From Mesodorylaimus sp. YZB2_4 (lineage: Eukaryota; Nematoda; Enoplea; Dorylaimida; Dorylaimidae): a stretch of 64,000 nt of DNA. Shown here piece after piece: positions 13,413-63,231 of the stretch. Both the position numbers and the translations under genes were made by a program. Below the pieces are notes generated by a model, which worked only from the letters and a program-made list of their open reading frames with translations, searched no databases and was not told the origin of the DNA. The first letter of the stretch is position 1. The number at the start of each line of letters is the position of its first letter. Location: the NCBI GenBank assembly GCA_030248295.1, contig JASANH010000997.1, positions 186,001 through 250,000 of the forward strand, read 5' to 3'.

Positions 13413-13900
13413 GGTTTTTGTTTTCCTATGGCTCAAGGATCAGGCACGAAAGACGTGAAGAAACTCATTTACTAAATTCGTAGCCAAACCGAAAAATCGG
13501 ATGGGCAAGATGGAGTGCGTACTCAAGCTAACAGATGCTTATGCTAGCGCGCGGGATTTCAAATTTTGTTTATTGCTTGCATTTATTCTTAATTCCGGGC
13601 AATTCTTGATTCTACGAATTCTCTGAAGGAATTAGTTTTTTTCATATGTTAAACTTTAAGAAATAGTGTCACTAGGATGAACCAGAAAGTGAAGTTCGTC
13701 TAACTGTGGGGTAACTGGGTCAACTTTCTCTCACCCTAAAAGGTAACATCACTCGAGCAATCTAGATCATCTCTTAGTCTACGACGCATGTTTCCTTTAC
13801 AATCGAGACACAGTTTCGTGACCTAAATGCACAGTCCAAAACCCCTATATAAGTCGTGTTGGGAAGGGATAGAGTCAGAGTTGTATTCAGTCCAGTGAGC
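13413..13900. other. Divergent promoter region of TOMM20 and collagen gene
   Basis: About 490 bp separating TOMM20 (-) from the cuticle collagen (+). It holds the collagen TATA box; no coding frame. Confidence 0.6.
13846..13853 (+). promoter_or_regulatory. TATA box of the collagen gene
   Basis: TATATAAG lies 48-55 bp upstream of the collagen ATG (13901), with an initiator-like TTCAGTCC at 13887-13894. Strong TATA boxes are common in highly expressed, stage-regulated cuticle collagen genes. Position and match are seen; use in vivo is inferred. Confidence 0.6.
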
Positions 13901-15509
13901 ATGGATTCCATTTTCCTTGCGGGTGGGAGTGAAATCGAGAAGAAACAAACGGCCAATGTCCGCGTGGCCACCGTATTCGCCACCTTGCTCAGTGTGGGGG
14001 CTTTGTTCGCCTGCTTCATCGTGGCTCCCATGATCTACAATGAAGTGCAGAGCATCTGGAGTGAAATCGATTTGGAAATGGAAGAATTCAAGGTCAGTGC
14101 CCGTCGTGCTGGTCCAAATGAGTGTCTGACTTCTACCCTGTTCCTTTAGATAATGTCAAACGAACTATGGTCTGACGTCATGGTCATCTCTGCTGGCAAA
14201 CGTTTCTCGAGACAGGCCGGAGGTGCTGGTGCCGGATATGGACCTTCTCCACCATCTCCGCCATCCGGTTATGGATCGACTGGTACTGAAGGAGCCAAAC
14301 AAGGCTGCCGTAAGTACAGAATGGCTGCAGCTAGGAGAAATGTTTGAGTTCGATAAACCTAAGCTGATTCATTTTGCAGAGTGCGATGCCAACAAGCAGT
14401 GCCCAGCAGGCCCACCCGGCCCACCTGGTGACCCAGGACCACCAGTAAGCCCCGAATGAATTTATTGAGTACCATTGACTGCTCAGAGTGTCGCTTCTGT
14501 TACAGGGCTTGGATGGCATTCCTGGCCAAGATGGTAAGCCCGGTGTGGATGCCAAGGATGGCGAAGTTGTCAAGTCGAAGGTGATGTGCAACAAATGCCC
14601 GCCAGGTCCGCCTGGTCCACCTGGCTTGGCAGGTCCACCAGGCGCGCAAGGCATGAAAGGCTCCGACGGTCGTCCTGGTATGCCTGGCAGTGATGGTCAG
14701 CCAGGCCCACCTGGAGAAATGGGCCCACCTGGACCTCCGGGTCCAGATGGAAAACCAGGTACGTGCTGATTCTTACTGTTTCTTTCCGTTCTCCATTAAG
14801 ATTTTTCAAATCACCTTGTTTTTAGGTCCGAAAGGGCCACCAGGCAACCCTACTGATCAGATCAAAGGTGTCAAAGGACCCAAAGGCCCACCAGGACCGC
14901 AAGGACCCCCTGGTGACAAAGGCCCCGATGGCAAGCCCGCCGACAAAGGCGCAGATGGAGAGCCCGGAGGACTCGGACCGCCTGGTCCGAAGGGCAACGA
15001 TGGCAACCAAGGTGACAATCTTGACATTCAACGCAGAAAGCAGACATAAAAACTAGATCCTTTTAGGGGAGCCTGGACCGATTGGTGAGCCTGGCGGGCC
15101 AGGATCCGACGCTCAATATTGCCCATGTCCAGGAAGAACGCAACCTGGTGGAATCAGTGGCGGTGGATTTGGTGGCGATAGCGGAAATGCCGTGGCTGGA
15201 GCCGGTGCTGGTGCTGCAGCTGGCGCAGGTGTTGGTGCTGCTGGTGCTGCTGTAGCTGCGGCTGGAGCTGGTGCTGGTGGCGTTCAAGCTCCAGCTGCAG
15301 CAGCTGGAGGGGGTGAGGCGGCACCAGGAGCGCAGCCTGCGTCTATTCCACATCCGCCAGCTCAAGTTCCACCACCACCACAGCCTCCAGGACCGGGAGC
15401 TGGCGCTGGTGCTGGTGGTGCACCTGCTGGAGGCGCCGCGCCTGCAGGAGGGGCTGCCCCCGCTGGAGCGGTGTATCCTGCTGCCCGTCAAAAGAAACGG
15501 CAGCACTAG
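13901..15509 (+). CDS. Nematode cuticle collagen with Ala/Gly/Pro-rich C-terminal tail
   Basis: Secreted structural collagen of the cuticle. Six exons: 13901-14092, 14150-14309, 14380-14444, 14506-14758, 14826-15011, 15067-15509; in frame, 432 residues. The N-terminus is a nematode cuticle collagen domain: a hydrophobic segment (about 22-45) followed by [19 protein letters not shown] and ELWSDV. Short Gly-X-Y runs begin after [16 protein letters not shown], are interrupted by a linker with CNKC, and resume over about 60-residue blocks. The triple-helical part ends near [16 protein letters not shown]. About 130 further residues are not collagenous: alternating Ala/Gly like elastin or silk, then PPPPQPPG, then more Gly/Ala and a basic end RQKKRQH. 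The usual nematode collagen is about 300 residues with a short tail, so this tail is unusual. Most introns are 49-72 nt. Confidence 0.93.
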
Positions 15510-15961: not shown

Positions 15962-18900
15962 ATGGCAGCGCCAGTCGCTTCCGAAGAAGTCCTTTTATTT
16001 TCGACATTGAGTATTTTGCAGTTAATTAAAGAAGCACAACAGCAACACGGCCTCCGTCATGGAGATTATCAGCGCTATCGGTTTGTATTTCCGTGTTTGC
16101 GTTTCTGGAATAGTTTTGATGATATTGAAAATATGTCCGCAGGGGGTATTGCGCCAGGAGGCTGCGTCGGATTCGAAAATCGCTTCATTTTACAAACGTA
16201 CAGAAGCACAAGAGCACGTTTCAACCGAAGACGGTCAACACCGATGTTGCTGCCAATGATCTAAGGTAGTCATATGCTATGCATGGTTTGCGCACAGATT
16301 TGAAACACAGGCGCTTACGTACTGTAAACTGATCGCAGAAGCGCGCTCGAATCTATGCTTTTCTATTTTGCAGCTCATGATAATTTTATGATTTCCGCGA
16401 AAGCGATACGCTGTCGTCATCCACTTATGTGCAAAGTTACTTGCACAGCTGCCTTGAAAATATACAGGGCTTCTTTGACGCTTTTTTAAGGGGATTTACT
16501 CTTGCTAAAGATTCAAAGCATCGGTCGGAATGATATGATATCAAACTAATACTTGCTGTGTTATTTTTAGATTCTTAATGCTACCGTTATTCGAAGCTGA
16601 ACGTTGTTGGGCTTACGCCATGCAGTTGAAACAAGAAGCCAATACGGAACCGCGAAAGCGATACGCTGTCGTCAATAAGTTAAAAAGGGTATCGCGCGTT
16701 TCTCAGCTCAATCTGCCCGTTCTGAAATGCTGTGTCTTTTTTACATTCAGGCTGTGTATCATACTCAGACGTTGGAGAATATTTGCAAATCGGTGGATAA
16801 GTTTGACGCGCCGACGAAGCTAGAAACTCAAGCCTACAATGCTTGGTTGCACGGGTGTTTGAATTTTGAGTTAAAACAGTGGGCGAAAGCGATGGAGTAT
16901 TTGAACACTTCTAAGTAAGCTGCAGTTTTTGTTAGTGCATCATATTCATTCTGGGTTGTAGTCACTTGTAAAGCTGTCACATTGCGTGTATTGGAGACCT
17001 GTTCCCCCCCCCCCCCCCCCCAAATGTCCAATGCTAAGGTCTTTAGTTGCTAGTGGGATTATGTATTTGTTGTAAAATTAAACTCTTCGTAGGAAAATTT
17101 ATGAAAATTTATCGACGTTGGTCAGCAATAGCGGTGATCAGGCCAATTTGGTCGACGTATATCATCAGCGTTGTCAAGAAATGACACCGCAGTTGCGATA
17201 CTGCGCATTCAGCGTTGGAGACGAATCTGCTGGTACAGTCGACGATCTTATTCGAATGAAAACTGAAATGCAGACAGGCGGCGAGCAGCAAGAAAATTTG
17301 CTGATCACATCGGATCTAGACGTAAGAAACATTAGTTTACTACCCCGTGTTTTCCAATGGAAACATAATTTTTCAGAAACTCATCGCCGAAGCTCGTCAA
17401 AGACAAGCAGCAACTGCTGCTCAAAAGATGGCCTTCGAAGTAGTTTGGTGCAGTCATAAAATAGCGACCGATAAGCCGGCTAAAGTGCAATCATTTATTT
17501 CGAGTCTGCAGCAGTTCGACGCTCAACTAAAACAGGCTGGAAACATGGACGCTAAGGTACGAGCGGGCATGGTCCGTATTGTTCGCCATAATGTCTCATT
17601 CTTTCCTTTCCTGCTGTTTTCGAGATGTCATACTGCGTGGCTGGGTTCTTATGTATTCCATCGCCTCATTTTTTCAGGTCGCATTGTACGAACGCTTATT
17701 GATTGACTGTCGCGACGCTATACAAGCCGTGAGGGACGACGCTAAATCAGAGGTAACCTTATTCTCAATGTCTTTGCTTCGTCGAATTAAATACAAAGAT
17801 GCTTTTGTTTCAGAATTTAAAAACAAAACGTGGCGGTGTTGACGATTCTGTTATCGATGGACCACCCGCAGTTCAAGCGAATGATAATCAACCATTTAGT
17901 CCCGCGCAGCTGCTTCATTCCTATTTGGTTTACGTCCGCTTGTCAAAAACGATCGATCGTTATTTACTAATGATCGACCAGCTTCGATCAGGTTCCTTAG
18001 CGAACGGCGATGATTCGCAAAAATTGCTGGCGGAGTCTTCGAACGATTCGAATCAATATGGGAAACAGAAAAGCAAGAAAAAGAAGCAGAAGGAGGATCT
18101 AGCCGCTGCTCAACAGAATACGCAAGGTGAGAAATCGAAAGCCAAGCCGCTGGATCTAGTTCGTTTGTACGACACGGTGTTGCAGGTATGACGATTCGAT
18201 TTTGGCATTACTGATTTTGCGAAATGCTTTTTCTTATTTAGAATTTGTCAGATATCGCCGCCTTACCTGGCGTTCAAAATGACCAAAAGTTTTTGAACGA
18301 AATTGATGCGAAATCGACGTACTTCCGCGCCTTTAGGTAAGAATTTTTCTAGTGCATTGCGAGGAACCTCGCGCACGGGTCTTGCGTTTAGGTGCTATTG
18401 TGTCGCGCAGTCTTTCGGACAACAGAAGAAATGGCGAGAGGCGTTGGCACTGTACGATCGTGCGGTGGATTACGCTCAGAAAGCCAAACAGGCTTTAAAA
18501 AAAGTCAAGATTTTCGATGAGAATGGTCATGTAAGAGGACACTGTTCTTGCTTAATATCTGTTGTCGCTTCCTTACCTATGTATATTTTGGATTTCAGGT
18601 TTCGGAACCAGCTTTAGAAGAGTTGTGCAGTGTAGTGAATGCGGCGAAATACTGTGCTCATGCCAACAGCGTATTGGAGGCGAGTCCGGGTGCCATGGAA
18701 ACGAATGTTACGCCAGCTGATGCTAGCGATGGCAGGGTACGAGTATACTCATGTTTATTGCATGTTTTAATTAATTCACGTTATTTTATGAATCACGTTT
18801 GTTATCTGACCTGAAAGTCATGAGGTACCTGATTATATTTTAGCCTATATTGGAGTCGTTGGATGTTTTCCGTCGTATCAACCCGTCAGATTTGACTCCT

Positions 18901-19128
18901 GCCAAGCTGGCCATTACGAATCCCCCCGTCTCGCTGGTGCGACTTCCACCAGATTTTCAAGCCATGCCTTGCAAACCCATGTTCTTCGATCTGGCATTAA
19001 ATCATGTACAATTCCCGTCCTTGGAAGAAAAGCTGGTGGAAGAAGGCGGCGGACGATCGGCTGGTAAAGGGGCTGAGGGTGGCGGTCTGACAGGAATCAT
19101 GAAAGGGTGGCTTTGGGGGAAGAAGTGA
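15962..19128 (+). CDS. SRP68: Signal recognition particle subunit SRP68
   Basis: SRP68 binds 7SL RNA and SRP72 in the particle that targets nascent secretory proteins to the ER. Twelve exons: 15962-16080, 16143-16265, 16571-16688, 16751-16914, 17093-17321, 17377-17556, 17678-17752, 17814-18185, 18242-18336, 18392-18530, 18599-18736, 18844-19128; 678 residues in frame (human 627). The RNA-binding N-terminus carries IKEAQQQHGLRHGDYQRYR, the Arg-rich YCARRLRRIRKSLHF and AMQLKQEANTEPRKRY, all nearly as in human. TPR-like helices follow. A Lys-rich insert lies near residue 440 (KQKSKKKKQKEDL). The C-terminal SRP72-binding end includes CKPMFFDLALNHVQFPSLE and GLTGIMKGWLWGKK. A 25-bp copy of exon 3 sequence lies in intron 2. 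Confidence 0.96.
16395..16419 (+). repeat. 25-bp copy of SRP68 exon 3 sequence inside intron 2
   Basis: Positions 16395-16419 are identical to 16650-16674, which encode PRKRYAVV in exon 3. The flanks do not match clearly, so this is a short isolated direct repeat 255 bp upstream of its source. Confidence 0.85.
17004..17021 (+). repeat. Mononucleotide C tract (18 C)
   Basis: Uninterrupted run of eighteen C in SRP68 intron 4 (16915-17092). Confidence 0.98.
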
Positions 19129-19658: not shown

Positions 19659-20667
19659 ATGGCACGTGACACGGCAGTGTTGGTGGTCGTGGTACTGGGT
19701 AAGTAAGTGGGCTGTGGAAGAGTGAGAAACCTTATTCTTACTGCGAGTCATAGTGACCAGTGACCGGTGAGGAGAAGGGGATACACGGCGTTATTTGCAG
19801 TGTGTGCAGTCATTCAAGCATTGGCTGAATCAGACGAACAGACCTTTACTGAAATTACGAGGAAGCTGCGTTCAACTCCTGGCGCCTCAAAGTACTACAA
19901 TGTCGGGCTGTCGGCACCCCAAGTCAGTGTCCTTGCTGTGCCGCCATCTATTTCCTATGTGCTTCAAAGTTTCAGACGCGAAGTGATAAATCTAGATCAC
20001 GACTAATTTTAACCGAGAACATTTGCCCGAGCCTACCCGAGTGGAAGAACTTCAGCAAAGCATTGACGGCAGATGGGTCCGAGGTCACGGTTATACAAGG
20101 GATGTTTGGATGGGCGTACCAGTGGTTCTATACAGTTCAATGTTCACCCATGACCGAGAACCGCACGTGCCAGTGGATTGATGAGAAGTGAGTATGGCCA
20201 AGTTATCTTTGGCAGACCCCAGGCACTAACGGAGCCAATGGTCTTCGAATCATGGGTATTTGACTTTGCCCACTTGCTCGCAGGCGATAACGTGCGTGGG
20301 AGATTTGGCCGGAAGGTTCTGATGTGGGAGTGTTTGTCACCAGTGCTTTGCTTATGCTTGCTGAAGCATAAGAAGGTAGACTTCCTGTTGACTTTCCAAC
20401 CTCTCAGGCCCGAATAGGCCGTCAGTCACACGCGTGTGATCAGAAAATTGTTGCAGACAAGCACCGAGAACGGCGTGTGTGACGGGCTATAACTTGGTCC
20501 CAGCCATCGTGAAAATAGACGAAATGGACAAGAACGGACAAGAGCAGTCGTCGTTCGATTGGCGCATGATACGCATTCCGGGCCGTTGCGGCTGCTATCG
20601 CGTTCGTTCATCCCTCTCGAGTCAATCGCCAGGTCTATTTGCCATGAAACTATCGGCACTGAAATAA
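19659..20667 (+). CDS. Neurotrophin-like (NGF/BDNF-type) secreted cystine-knot ligand
   Basis: Four exons: 19659-19698, 19801-19922, 19976-20187, 20457-20667; frame kept, 194 residues. Residues 1-22 form a signal peptide (Val-rich core, ending near VCAVIQALA). A short pro-region ends in a basic cluster (KSRSR, residues 59-63) just before the domain. The mature domain has six Cys at about 71, 110, 119, 132, 169 and 171: C-x38-C-x8-C-x12-C-x36-C-x-C. It matches vertebrate neurotrophins in order: CPSLPEW (BDNF CDSISEW), a loop with DGSEVTVI, YQWFYTVQCSPM (BDNF KQYFYETKCNPM), then WRMIRIPGRCGC (WRFIRIDTSCVC). Spaetzle is the related alternative, but it lacks the WRxIRI strand. Neurotrophins signal through Trk and p75 receptors; no receptor is in the window. 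The stop overlaps an AATAAA. The loop before WRMIRI is about nine residues longer than in NGF. Confidence 0.82.
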
Positions 20668-25188: not shown

Positions 25189-28100
25189 ATGAAGCTTGCA
25201 TTACCAGTCGAGAATTGGGCCCGATCTGATACGTGCATATGGCTGGCCAGTGATGAAGGAAAGATCCAAATTTGGCCGTGTAGAAAATCGAAACTTAAAG
25301 TAATTGTATCGTGGGTGCTTACTGTGCTTACTGTGGGCTTCTTACGATTGCTTTTCTATTGGAAACCCTTATGGCACGCGTTGGCAATATGCGACAAATG
25401 CGAACCAGAAAATGCTGAACAGATGCTAGTTAAGTAAGTTGTCTCAGACAAATTGTGATTCATTTCCGCTGCAGTTCCGGAAAGCTTTAGGTCTGAAAAT
25501 GAACATGATTTACGACTGATTAGAACAGCTGTATGGCCAGACGGATTGACCCTGTTCTGTCCGGGTGGTGCTACAATGGAAGTTCCATCATGTCGATATT
25601 TTTCTTATAAAAAAGTTACTTTCCTCTGGCATCCATTAGTCAAAATGTTCCATAAGATATTCGGATTCGACTGCGATGTACCACTGACCTTATTAGGATC
25701 ACAAAAAGGCCTTACATCAAGCGAAGCTAACAAAAGATTAGCCATATTTGGATCGAATGAAATTGCTGTCGATTTGAAACCAATTATCGTTTTATTATTT
25801 CGTGAGGTGAGTGGCGTGCTGGTGAGGAAGTAGTTAGGAAGTAGCAAAGATCGCAAGGGACCAGTATAAACAGCGGGTACCAGATGTGCTGAAAAAACCG
25901 CAACACTGTAAAGTTGGTCAATTGCCAATTCAGAACTATCAGGAAGAACGAGGGTGGTACCAAGCCCCATAGCACGAACTCCCGGTTCACTTCCTGTCCC
26001 TATTTCCTGTATCTTATTGTGAGACATAGAACACACACCTTTCACTGATCGTGAGCCAGTCATATGGTATCATGTGGAATTTATAAAGCAGCCCTCTCCG
26101 CAGTCACTTCAAAAATGCGTGTTCTGAAGACCTGCTGTAACGGACTCTCGGAGTAGCGCATTTGCGTCAGATCGGAGTAGCGCATTTGTGCTTCTGTGTG
26201 GTAGCTTTTCACCAGCCATTAGAGTAATCTTGACAGTGCAGTCGTATTTACATAGCTGTCTCCTAGTGAACAGTGTTGGCGAAGTTGCCAAGTTTACGCT
26301 CCAAGGATGTCTTGTAGTACGAGTCCTAGAAAATCCATCGGGCATAGTTCAAATAGTGATCTAGTTCTCAAGGCGGTCTGATTGCTTTTCTCTTCTCTAC
26401 TACCACGGCACTTGGGTGACGCTGATTAGGCTTTCGTGACATGTTTAGATCGTCAGAATAGAATGCGTCTTTTCCGTTCAACCCAAAGGGAGTACTGCAA
26501 GGTCGGGGTGAGAATTCGATTTGACTAATTGCTCAATGGCGTTTACTCTAGGCAAGTAAAAATCGAAACTTAGCGTTTCGAACGTGAAGAGGGACCATAT
26601 GACTACCTGGTTGCGTGGCAAAATGACATTTTTTGTGGCCTTCATTACACACTCCCAGGCACTAAAGCAGATTCCGAGCGGAACTGGTGCAATGCGAAAT
26701 TAAATGCAGGCATGCATAAAATTCATGAAAGCACTTGTCAGGAACAGAGCAAACAACTCATGCACATTTTATTTTTGCTTTCATACTGTACATTTCAGGT
26801 TTTCAGCCCGTTCTATTTGTTTCAAGTCTTCAGTGTGGCCGTATGGTACAGCGAAGGCTATTTGTACTACGCTACCATTATCATTGTAGTGTCAGTCATA
26901 TCAGTCACAGTGACAGTATGGCAGACACGGCGGAATCAACGAAAACTAAGGAACATGATGTACTCAATTGGCATTGCCACAGTCTGGAGAGATGGTGAGT
27001 GGAAAAAGAAATCGACCAGCATCTTAGTCCCTGGCGATGTAATCTATTTGCCCGATATGGGAGAAATGCATTGCGATGCGGTGCTGTTACGTGGTTCGGC
27101 CATAGTTAACGAAGCTATGCTGACTGGCGAAAGTGTGCCCATGACCAAAACACCAGTCAGGCCCGAAACTGCCCAGCCTGATGAACGATACGATAGTAAG
27201 GAGCACGCTAAACATACTCTGTTCTGCGGAACAAAGATTTTACAAACCAAACATGCACCAGGAGAACCGGTTACGGTAAGCATTCGACTGCTCATCATCA
27301 GCCTGATTAGTGTAAAACGTTATTTATCTTTGCGCCGTAGGCAGTTGTCATTCGCACGGGATTCAGTACAACTAAAGGACGATTGGTTCGTACGATCATG
27401 TACCCGAAGCCGATCGAATTCGAATTCACGCGTGATCTCTTCCGATTCATCGGTGTTTTCTTTCTGATAGCAATCATAGGGTTTATTTACACTGTCATAT
27501 TGATGGTGCAAAGGCAGAACAGTTTCCACAAGATCGCTACTAGGTCACTCGATATAATTACCATTGTCGTGCCACCAGCGCTCCCAGCAGCGATCACCAT
27601 CGGCATCATAGTTGCTCAACGAAGACTGAAGAAAGCTATGATTTATTGCACATCGCCCAGCGCGATCAACACAGCAGGTGGAATAAATGTAGCTTGTTTC
27701 GACAAAACTGGCACACTGACCGAAGAGGGACTGGACCTGTTTGGTGTCATACCTGCCAGTGGGTAAGTTGGAATTGTGGGATGGGGGTTTTTTATACAGT
27801 TGGTGCGACATTAGACCGACTGTACGTGACTTTTTCAGAATCCAAGCTGAAAAATCAGCCGTGGACGTATCTGACTTGCCTCCTGACAGCGAGCTGATCA
27901 GCGTAATGGCAACTTGTCATTCGCTGACTCAACTGAACAAGCACCTCGCGGGCGATCCAATGGACATGATACTTTTCCAAAAAACTGGTTGGAAATTGGA
28001 GGAAAAAGGTCAGGAAAGAATAAGCACAATACCCAGTGATTGTGGCTACGACGGCCCAGCTTCACTATCACCGCCAGTCGAGGATTTTGAAGCGAACGAA

Positions 28101-30480
28101 AACGGTCTCATGGTCGTTCGCTCACCCGATCACAAAACTCGCATCCAAATATTGCGTGAATTCACATTCACCTCGTCGTTGAGACGGATGTCAGTTTTTG
28201 TGCATTCACATTGCAGCGACTCTGCTTCTCGATCGGGATTGTTCCTCTTTTGCAAAGGAGCACCAGAAACGATTTCGGCTTTGTGCTCCGCCGACTCAGT
28301 GCCCGCCCAGTTCACCCAAGTTCTGCACTCTTACGCCAAATGCGGATATCGCGTCATAGCCTTAGCTTATAAACGATTCGATTCCGACGAGAGCAATGCG
28401 GAACACTATTTGAAAATGCCTCGTGCGGATTTGGAGAATGATATGACATTTTTAGGATTCGTCGTCTTTGAAAACAGATTGAAAGAACAGACCATTCCCA
28501 ATATCAGCATCCTGAAGGCTGCTAGGATGAGGACTGTGATGGTCACCGGCGATAACATGCTTACGGCTGTCTCAGTGGCTAAAGAATGCGGACTGCTGGA
28601 TGATCGAAGACTGATTTACACCATCGAGGCCGAACTGATCAATGAACAGCCCAAGATAACCTTGCATGCCGAATCAGCTGATCCGGTTAGACTCGTCTCA
28701 AGCGGTAGACTAAAGGCAGAAGAGAGGAAACATGTGATGATCGACGTAGATGCCAATGACGCTGGTAAAAGGAAGAAGAGGAAGTCCATAAGCGAGGATC
28801 ACTTGTCGACTGGATTCGAAGCCAATTATCAGCTTGCCATTTCAGGTAACTTGAAAAACAGTTGGGACAGCAGGTATGCCAGCTAAGGGTCGCTTTATTC
28901 CAGACGGGCTTCCTGCGGGGTTGGTCGAGGAGGGTGCCCACCTGTACAGTCGTCCGGTAACCGCGTTAAAGTAAAAATCGATCCCAGAGTGCCTGCTGTG
29001 GTCCCTAACGGCTCACCAATAAACCTGTACTGGTGGCTGTATAATTGGTGTCACTCACTATCAAGACTCTGCTGTTCTCTTCTAACTGTCTGATGGCATT
29101 ACTTTCAGGTTCATCCTACGCTATTATCACTTCTAAGGCACCTCACCTCCTTCCCAAATTGACAGCCGTTTGCGACGTTTATGCACGCATGGCCCCAGAG
29201 CAGAAGATCCAGCTGGTGACCAACTTACAAGAGATCGGCTACATTGTGTCCATGTGCGGAGATGGAGCAAACGATTGTGGCGCCTTGAAGGTCAGTATTC
29301 CAATAGAGTTCTCTGTGTTGAGAGAAGGTGCCGTCCACGACTTGACTTCCACATTGCAACAAATGTCAACCACATCTGGCTTGTGGAACAGCTTGGGGAA
29401 CCATATCAACGTAGTTTTGTGCCCTGCGCAGAGACCTCAAAGAGTATGGGACAGTTCTGCCAAGAAGAGGTTTCCCTGCTCGTAAATGCGATCCTTCTTT
29501 CCTCCCCTGATTCATGGAATGACTCATTTCAGGCTGCTCACGTCGGCTGCAGTTTGTCCGAAGCCGAAGCCTCGATCGCAAGCCCATTCACGTCGAAGGT
29601 GCCCGATATTAGTTGCATTCCAAAGCTCATCCGCGAGGGTCGAGCCTCCCTGGTCACCACGTTCGGCGTTGTGAAGTATATGTGCGTGTACAGCTTGACG
29701 CAGTTTCTCGCCGTGGTTATCCTATATTGGATCGGATCCAATTTGGGCGACATTCAGTTCTTATACAGCGATCTGTTCCTGACCACCACGTACGCGGTGT
29801 TCTTTGGGTACACCAACCCGTCGACCTTCCTTTCACCCATCCCACCACCAACTCATATTCTCACAGTTACGTCCGTCACCTCAATCATGGCTCAAATGGC
29901 CTGGGTTTTGGCCTTTCAAGTATTCGCTTTCGAATTTGTCAAAATTCAACCTTGGTTCGTCCCATTTGTCTTTCCCAACGATGAAAACAACTATGTGTCA
30001 TATCAGACAACTTGCGTCTTCTTTGCGGCCTCCTTTCAACAAATCGTCCTGTGCATCGTCTACTCAAAGTCATTTCCGTACAGGGCATCCATACTTAGTA
30101 ACTACTTATTGACAGCCTCAATCATATTGACCACTGCGGCCACCATAGCTCTATTAATAGCACCTGGAGCCGCCTTGACTGACATCATGAACCTGAAACT
30201 GCCCCCTGAAATGAAATATAGGGGGCTCATGATCCTTCTAGCTATACTTCACTTCTTTTTGGGCGTTGGAACAGAGAATATTGTCGAGTACCTGATGCCC
30301 GTGATCGAACCACACTTGCCTTTCCGACGGAAGAAGGCAAAATATGAGGAAACTTTGTCCTCAGATGTAGCCCGCAGTCCGAACTGGCTTCAGGCAAAAG
30401 TTATCCATGACGTACAGGCTCATGATGCCAACAGAGCAGCGTATGGAAACCAGGCCTTCTACGCTACTGATGAACTCTAG
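25189..30480 (+). CDS. P5B-type ATPase (ATP13A2/ATP13A3 family)
   Basis: Endolysosomal P-type ATPase; P5B members export polyamines from lysosomes. Seven exons: 25189-25433, 25491-25806, 26799-27275, 27341-27762, 27839-28845, 29109-29290, 29533-30480; 1198 residues in frame (human ATP13A2 1180). The N-terminal membrane hairpin ends in [11 protein letters not shown], shared with ATP13A2. The actuator TGES lies at about 296-299, the P5B signature PPALPAA in M4 at about 425, the phosphorylated Asp in DKTGT at about 467, MVTGDN in the P domain, and the hinge GDGANDC at about 874. Six C-terminal membrane helices follow. PPALPAA rather than PPELP excludes P5A. A Lys/Arg insert (GKRKKRKS) precedes the hinge region. 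C. elegans relatives are catp-5, -6 and -7. Intron 2 is nearly 1 kb. The start ATG is the first in frame and could be preceded by another exon. Confidence 0.95.
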
Positions 30481-61600: not shown

Positions 61601-63231
61601 CGTCCCTGAACTTTTGCATGTGACTCACCATCTGGACGAGCAAAATACGAGCGAACATTTCTCGACCAGTGCAAGCTTTTGATACAGCTGCGGCAGCATT
61701 CCAAAACGGTTTCTTGTCCACTTGACTCAACGGAACCAATGCATCGACATCCTCGAATCGTCGCCCATTCACCTTATTCACTTCTTGTATCGTTTTGCAA
61801 TTAACCAAGAAGGCCGACTCATCACGTCCGTATCTGCAATGGGGGCTATCTGTCAGAATATCCATAATCGCCCCGGGGGGGGGGGGATGCTGTGTCATTC
61901 AAGGGCCCCGTGCACCATATGTAGGCTGTACCCCGCGACCTAGCTCCTGCACGGCACGTTTAACCTAATCCGACTAGTGGTCAATGAAAAGCGAGTGGGT
62001 TCGGCGAGGTGTCTGCTTTCACGTGGATGCGCACTACAGTACTGGGGAGTATTCGACTCGCGGCCAGGTAAGCAGTGGGTCCCTTCGTCACCTCGATTGC
62101 GCACACCTTTTATTGGAGGAACGTGAAGTCCCCGCATCCGCGTGTACTCGCATCCCAGGATTATCATGGGCATGGGCATCGTCCTCGCAGCGTTTCGATA
62201 AGCAGTTTCCCGGCAAGTGATGCAGAGTAAAGCGGCTAAGAAACTGTCGGCGAAGAGTAACCTTCTCTTCACGTTTGATTTAATCACCAAGCGCGGATAT
62301 GCGCACTCGAAGGTGAGGGCACTCAAACGTGAAGGGACACGTTCACACAATGATTCACCCGGCCCAGCTCAACCTACTACCTGTGTGAGAAGCCGGTGCT
62401 CCCGCCTTGACCTCTTGAGGCTACCGTTCCCACGGGAATGGAACTGTGGTCCCCTGCCCCGTTTGTAGCCCGCGCATGTAGCACCCTATTCACACGCACC
62501 AACGGAGATAAGTCCAAAAGCGGTAAGTCGTCCTGTCCACCCAGCCAGGTTCAGCGGTCGCCTATAATTGGCCCAGTCTTCGGCTGAGGCGAGGCGAGGT
62601 GACTGCGAGCCACATGGAGCGGCAGGCGGCTTGCCCGCATCTGCATGCCCCTCTGCACAAAGGTAACTTACCCGCACAATTCCAGATTCTTCTCTCGAAT
62701 AGCGAATGCATAATTGCTCAGTACAAGCACATCGATCGGATCAGCTCGTCCCATTTCTTTTAATCTTTTTACTCGCCCATCGTCCGTCACACCATATCGC
62801 TCAAACCAATCTTGCAAGAGCACGGTGTGTGGGTGCGAACTGATCCCGTCCACTGAGCGACTCGCAGCTCGCCATCGACCAAAACCCATCATACCCGCTT
62901 TTTCCAACATTGCCGCTCGATCCTGCATCCATTGCAGCACTTCTTTAATCGATTTCGGGCTCAGAACATTTCGTATCTGGTCACTCAAATGTAAAGCATC
63001 GCATCGTCGACATTTCACCATTCGTGCACTTGTTCGAAACAACAGACGATTTCGACAAGTTTCATTTGGGCATCGTCCCGTACGTACGTCAAGCAGCTGA
63101 TCTGAGATCTTCGAAAATCGCAGAGCCATTCAGAACGTATGTTAGCACACAGTTCGAAAAGTTGATGTGACACACTTACCTCGAAGCACCTGACGTAGCG
63201 ACATTACACTTCCGCACCCAGCCATTACCAT
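58605..63231 (-). CDS. VCPIP1: VCPIP1 (VCIP135) homologue with degenerate OTU active site
   Basis: VCPIP1 is an OTU deubiquitinase that binds p97/VCP and acts in Golgi reassembly. Exons in transcript order: 63180-63231, 62672-63101, 61149-61833, 60141-60241, 59932-60078, 59541-59878, 59268-59455, 59117-59203, 58818-59063, 58605-58754; 807 residues (human 1222). N-terminal zinc ribbon RCPNETCRNRLLF...CRRC; then YAFAI...GYGRD; then the OTU region with ALVPL, VSKACTGREMF, LANVLRRPILFVD and VMAWADRNR. Next come CMRC...CQHC, KHFHDFEYDN, VIWFSHESDSSKNS, and a C-terminal KDGFFYVFAERHYRGLPHF with LVVCVDGRGHF. Each block matches human VCPIP1 in order. The catalytic DGDGHCLVHA is replaced by KKPFWNAAAA (no Cys) and RNHYIPL by RSSKVAM (no His). 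Intron 59879-59931 would start with GC. An alternative start is 63129 without the first intron. Confidence 0.9.
60881..60950 (-). repeat. tRNA-Gly(GCC)-like sequence, probable SINE or tRNA pseudogene
   Basis: Inside the 907-bp VCPIP1 intron. On the minus strand GTAGAATATTTGCCTGCCAC and GGGGTTCGACTAGGG parallel the tRNA-Gly(GCC) segments GTAGAATTCTCGCCTGCCAC and CGGGTTCGATTCCC. The anticodon stem is broken and the acceptor stem is weak, so it is not a working tRNA. Derivation from tRNA-Gly, either as a SINE head or a pseudogene, is inferred. Confidence 0.5.
61875..61886 (+). repeat. Mononucleotide G tract (12 G)
   Basis: Twelve G preceded by CCCC, in the first long intron of the VCPIP1 homologue close to the acceptor at 61834. 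Confidence 0.97.

Follow-up and report, generated by a model that had tools for sequence, protein, structure and literature searches.

The window considered here, that is, the whole stretch of 64,000 nucleotides that was analysed (C121:186001-250000, from an assembly of 145.1 Mb in 1067 contigs), contains a four-exon gene on the plus strand at 19659-20667. The gene, called NT1 in the following, encodes a protein of 194 amino acids with a cystine knot of the type found in neurotrophins. Its coding sequence comprises 585 bases including the stop codon, with which exon 4 ends, and all three introns are of the GT..AG type, with phases 1, 0 and 2. The exons are listed in Table 1, together with the other genes that were recognized in the window.

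Table 1. Positions of NT1 and of the other features in the window, counted from the first nucleotide of the window.
Feature	Position	Strand	Content	Evidence
Nematode cuticle collagen, N-terminal domain exon	13853-14146	+		Pfam Col_cuticle_N 55.8 bits, cut-off 23.5
Collagen triple-helix exon	14479-14766	+	next to the Col_cuticle_N exon	Pfam Collagen 52.3 bits, cut-off 27.2
SRP68-like gene	17082-19125	+		three frames match, one over cut-off
NT1 exon 1	19659-19698	+	start of predicted signal peptide	splice model
NT1 exon 2	19801-19922	+	remainder of putative signal peptide to ~19826 (estimated by eye), then most of the pro-region	splice model, hydropathy
NT1 exon 3	19976-20187	+	basic cluster at ~19976-20002; knot cysteines C1-C3 (C1 at 20024-20026); phase-2 intron at end	
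NT1 exon 4	20457-20667	+	knot cysteines C4-C6 (C6 at 20593-20595), C-terminal tail, stop	
Cation_ATPase match	27720-28883	+	inside apparent P-type ATPase gene at ~25.4-30.5 kb (by eye)	30 bits
VCIP135_N domain	62671-63129	-		58 bits

The N-terminus of NT1 is hydrophobic (hydropathy window 2.49) and constitutes a putative signal peptide. A basic cluster, TRSDKSRSR, precedes the knot and is a candidate site for cleavage by a convertase. The six cysteines follow in the knot order with the spacing x38-x8-x12-x36-x1, the last two forming a CxC motif. This picture agrees well with a first-pass annotation of the same DNA, which had proposed four exons, a basic cluster ahead of the knot and a number of neurotrophin-like strands. 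All of these are found in NT1, and the cysteine spacing that had been given, 38-8-12-36-1, is recovered exactly. The structure of the gene can thus be regarded as established at the level of the sequence.

As to the surroundings, the SRP68-like gene ends about 0.5 kb upstream of NT1 on the same strand. A search of the window against Rfam gave zero matches at the gathering score.

When compared with Pfam-A, NT1 scores 32.1 bits against the NGF family (PF00243; E 1.4e-7, cut-off 27), the match covering residues 69-173. One other entry appears within the limit of E 10, a zinc finger with an E value of 0.13, and the Spaetzle family (PF16077) is absent from the matches in this range. Among the PDB chains, only two entries are obtained up to E 10, both of them BDNF (E 3.6e-5) and with all six cysteines aligned. 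A joint profile of NT1 and the second ligand gene NT2, which is described below, picks up 21 sequences of the PDB with E values of at most 10, of which the best 18 are neurotrophins. The top 17 have E values below 1e-4 and the 18th, NT-4, has E 0.37; one PDB match is labelled as an ovulation-inducing factor, which we take to be an NGF. The other three of the 21 sequences are unrelated and none is a Spaetzle, the presence of a Spaetzle chain in that library being unconfirmed. These comparisons support the assignment of NT1 to the neurotrophin family. The preference for a true neurotrophin over Spaetzle, expressed already in the first-pass annotation, is supported by an NGF score over the cut-off and by the lack of a Spaetzle match for NT1.

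It should be pointed out that the NGF-profile scores of NT1 and NT2 exceed the cut-off only modestly. When the whole genome was searched in six frames with the same profile, nothing was found at E ≤ 0.001; the method disregards introns, and an exon boundary splits the knot domain.

With BDNF and the other neurotrophins, NT1 has in common the six-cysteine knot, the final CxC, the WRxIRI strand, the strand before C2 (WFY in NT1, QYFY in BDNF) and a precursor that is putatively of the secreted type. There are, however, also some differences. The loop between C4 and C5 is longer in NT1 than in BDNF. Compared to NGF, BDNF and NT-3, furthermore, the pro-region of NT1 is short and a C-terminal tail extends past the knot. 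The signature of the vertebrate neurotrophins is given as [GSRE]-C-[KRL]-G-[LIVT]-[DE]-x(3)-[YW]-x-S-x-C in PMC2772990, and it is not family-defining in invertebrates. As judged by eye, it is unmatched in both ligands, where the sequence is TCQWIDEKQAPRTAC in NT1 and PCRLVSSEYSTRC in NT2.

A genome search with the NT1 protein, carried to E 1, gives six places, and three of these are NT1 itself. Two adjoining exons of contig C219, with E values of 0.002 and 0.004, belong to the second ligand gene, NT2 (locus L007), which has four exons and encodes 186 amino acids. Over the knot, NT1 and NT2 carry the same residue in 42 of the 102 positions that align (41%), with E 4e-24 at a nominal database size. 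The raw alignment score is 218, to be compared with a mean of 26.0 (sd 4.7, maximum 52) in 2000 shuffles. Two introns are common to both genes, one of phase 0 ahead of the knot and one of phase 2 that separates C3 from C4, and NT2 has one extra intron within the knot. The cysteines of NT2 are also in the knot order, with the spacing 37-8-10-32-1 and a final CxC. Its top PDB matches are BDNF (E 2.4e-6) and then NGFs, and in Pfam it scores 28.2 bits with NGF and 25.8 bits with Spaetzle, both of which have a cut-off of 27. A third ligand candidate, on contig C15 (L006), has E 0.195 and two internal stops, and it was taken as a chance match.

We now turn to the receptors. The first-pass annotation had called for a search of the same genome for Trk and p75, and both are found, in the form of two Trk-type receptors and one p75NTR. 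For the kinases, the query was a part of the human TrkA kinase. It yields at least 86 places in the genome at E ≤ 1e-8, the scoring having covered 150 of the 271 candidates; 12 of these places were made into loci, and stretches of 10 kb were read around the best four. The open reading frame of Trk1, on contig C10, has 1004 codons, and that of Trk2, on contig C26, has 879. Counted from the likely start codons, the proteins have 906 (L022:3726-6443) and 866 (L023:3773-6370) amino acids and are 43% identical to each other, and both coding regions are uninterrupted.

The kinase motifs GEGAFG, VAAK, HRDLA and DFGM(T/S)RDIYSSDYYR are present in Trk1 as well as in Trk2. The activation loop of both, DIYSSDYYR, contains YSSDYYR, one of the two forms (the other being YSTDYYR) by which a Trk was recognized. 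Both proteins have the Pfam tyrosine kinase domain and one strong transmembrane stretch. Among the PDB chains, Trk1 matches TrkA best, with 259.1 bits compared to 222.2 for ROR1. For Trk2, the top chain (272.1 bits) is labelled only 'Tyrosine-protein kinase receptor', and it is followed by TrkB (267.7 bits) and TrkA, with MuSK at 241.0 bits. When the ectodomains are used alone, the best PDB matches are the LRR regions of TrkC/TrkA, with E values of 3e-15 for Trk1 and 2e-14 for Trk2. The Pfam domain LRR_8 scores 30.5 bits in Trk1 and 26.4 bits in Trk2, the latter being just below the cut-off of 27. Ig_3 reaches 22.2 bits in Trk1, below the cut-off of 30, and is not listed for Trk2, while a GWYxC strand can be seen by eye in both. 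We consider the membership of the two proteins in the Trk family to be shown at the level of the sequence.

Some deviations in the signalling motifs deserve mention. The juxtamembrane NPxY, which occurs in the Trks of Lottia and Capitella according to PMC2772990, is replaced by NAVY, i.e. an NxxY form, in both receptors. The C-terminal PLC-gamma tyrosine motif was sought in Trk1 and Trk2 and is absent from both. This motif is not universal, since it is reported to be missing in the Trks of amphioxus and sea urchin (PMC2772990).

Two other loci that ranked high with the Trk kinase query, L024 and L025 (ranks 2 and 4, contigs C123 and C9), were rejected as being ROR-like and not Trk. The best PDB matches of L024 are ROR1/ROR2, and kringle-type sequence can be seen by eye in both loci. 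The profile LRRCT_2 (PF16920), also employed as a marker for Trk, matches weakly at two places in the genome, both below the cut-off and neither of them on the Trk contigs.

The p75NTR gene is located on the minus strand of contig C4 (L034), and its model starts at the exon that opens the repeats and does not include a signal-peptide exon. The protein has four TNFR_c6 stretches in Pfam with a total of 81.2 bits (cut-off 29.4), a TNFR_16_TM segment (34.0 bits, cut-off 25.6) and a Death domain (36.1 bits, cut-off 22.6), and its best PDB matches are the p75NTR entries 3buk and 1sg1, with E values of about 2e-18. The first-pass annotation had been concerned with a ligand, and the results support a wider reading, in which all three components are encoded in the present nematode. 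The genome search with TNFR_c6, carried to E 0.1, gave six places, of which four are over the cut-off and two of these on C4. Repeats over the cut-off were also observed at L029 (C23:931625), the frame of which has two TNFR_c6 repeats and no death domain listed, and at L030 (C22:403292). The place on C55 (L037) is below the cut-off.

In the neurotrophin family as it is known from other animals, the mature dimers attach to the Ig-like region of Trk. The receptor then phosphorylates the YxxxYY loop of its kinase and draws in adaptors via a juxtamembrane tyrosine, and p75 binds the neurotrophin separately and signals by means of its death domain. Counterparts of all these elements are encoded in the present genome, the Ig-like region being a putative one. 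We consider it very probable that NT1 is a true neurotrophin which is secreted and processed and which acts via the Trk-type receptor or receptors and the p75NTR of the same genome. We infer the following course of events. The NT1 precursor would enter the secretory pathway, where the short pro-region would be removed, and the cystine-knot growth factor released in this way would, by analogy with its relatives, dimerise. Mature NT1 would then bind to one or both of the Trk-type receptor tyrosine kinases, with their ectodomains of LRR and Ig-like parts, and to p75NTR. Activation of the kinase could set the survival, growth or synaptic strength of the neurons or other cells that use the ligand. 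That the ligand and the Trk each have two genes suggests two partly separated ligand-receptor pairs. Because the NAVY form is present and the PLC-gamma site is missing, we also suggest that a Shc-type route would be likelier in these Trks than a PLC-gamma route.

Another scenario considered was that NT1 is a Spaetzle-type ligand that signals via Toll receptors, in which case its likeness to NGF would reflect the common cystine-knot fold only. The folds of Spaetzle and the neurotrophins are indeed related, and the Spaetzle score of NT2 falls just below the cut-off, its NGF score being the higher of the two. For NT1, on the other hand, no Spaetzle match is seen up to E 10, and among the 21 PDB sequences obtained with the joint profile the best 18 are neurotrophins and none is a Spaetzle, in a library where the presence of a Spaetzle chain is unconfirmed. 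Trk and p75 receptors are, moreover, encoded in the same genome, and Spaetzle-like places are found elsewhere in it. A genome-wide search with the Spaetzle profile, in which neither NT1 nor NT2 surfaced, gives a place on C130 (C130:182818, L044) with 26.7 bits, counted as 27 with its frame neighbours and hence at the cut-off, and a place on C132 (C132:139896, L045) with 23.8 bits, below the cut-off of 27. Both end in VPxxCxC and look like separate Spaetzle-type genes, and the genome appears to hold ligands of both types. Spaetzle was therefore rejected as the family of NT1, and signalling through Toll is in our view very unlikely. It could also be imagined that the ligand is real and yet uncoupled from Trk and p75, using some other receptor or acting outside the worm, for example on the host if the animal is a parasite. 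The divergence of NT1 and NT2, and the C4-C5 loop being longer than that of BDNF, would be compatible with this. However, the same genome retains both types of receptor in intact form, their kinase and death domains being complete, and such a role is judged to be unlikely.

A further option is that the contig represents contamination or belongs to an animal other than a nematode, and the first-pass annotation had made its reading depend on the nematode origin. The cuticle-collagen gene in the window lies 4-6 kb upstream of NT1, and the transthyretin-like family, which to our knowledge is nematode-specific, has 27 places in the genome, all 27 over the cut-off and one of them on the Trk1 contig. 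Because of this collagen gene and these 27 places the contig is taken to be nematode, and we regard the presence of NT1 in a nematode genome as established. Markers of this kind are found on C121, C10 and C22. On the contigs of Trk2, p75 and NT2, where the transthyretin-like family was the only marker family sought, none of its 27 places is located. What could speak for a foreign origin is that the canonical SL1 was not found, neither with the Rfam model (50 of 31302 candidates scored) nor with a 22-mer search allowing up to two mismatches, both of them run without a positive control. In early-branching nematodes, however, SL1 may be missing or diverged, and the failure to find it here is a weak hint of a lineage outside the typical Chromadorea. 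Contamination or a source other than a nematode is considered to be extremely unlikely.

With NT1 as a true neurotrophin, the best reading of the sequences is that the present nematode kept the full neurotrophin-Trk-p75 system. It would follow that the system, reported as absent from C. elegans, was lost there secondarily. One gene of C. elegans bears the name trk-1. According to PMC2772990, the C. elegans genome contains no component of the neurotrophin system, and in PMC7535936 the system is described as a bilaterian innovation. A triad of neurotrophin, Trk and p75NTR is reported for Daphnia pulex in PMC2772990. The likeness between Daphnia and the present nematode extends, beyond this ecdysozoan triad, to a knot that is spread over several exons and to the Trk autophosphorylation sequence DIYSSDYY. 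The two differ in that one ligand is reported in Daphnia compared to two here, and in that the Daphnia Trk gene has 16 exons whereas the coding regions of Trk1 and Trk2 are uninterrupted, the PLC-gamma motif being missing from both (PMC2772990 for Daphnia). The uninterrupted genes are perhaps due to intron loss, or to a retrocopied ancestor that was then duplicated.

We are inclined to believe, with moderate confidence, that an early-branching nematode kept and duplicated the ancestral neurotrophin-Trk-p75NTR system, beside Spaetzle-like ligands and with two uninterrupted Trk genes, and that the module disappeared inside the phylum, on the line leading to C. elegans. If this is true, a lack of neurotrophins is not an ancestral trait of the nematode nervous system, and the loss would fall within the phylum and become datable. 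It would also provide simple nervous systems in which the presence of neurotrophin signalling can be set directly against its loss, and strengthen the case for all three components in the common ancestor of Ecdysozoa. Among the matches listed in our literature search, which had the subscription literature mostly and preprints wholly outside its range, the titles and beginnings of abstracts contain no report of a nematode neurotrophin, Trk or p75. In a term look-up, 'neurotroph', 'NGF' and 'Trk' were missing from the main text of the enoplean nematode papers PMC5015942 and PMC3890508. The kind of protein is already known. What is new, as far as checked, is that it occurs in a nematode, that ligand and Trk are both duplicated, and that the Trk genes are uninterrupted.

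One additional observation concerns the mitochondrial genes. The best COX1 place in the genome is a stretch on another contig (C73:243001-263000, L042/L043), where a mitochondrial-type cox1 is followed by nad4 in an inverted repeat. Both genes can be read without stops when the invertebrate mitochondrial code is applied, each flank carries what looks by eye like a neprilysin gene, and no tRNA is found in L043 by ARAGORN. This stretch represents nuclear copies or an assembly artefact, and its COX1 sequence looks non-chromadorean.
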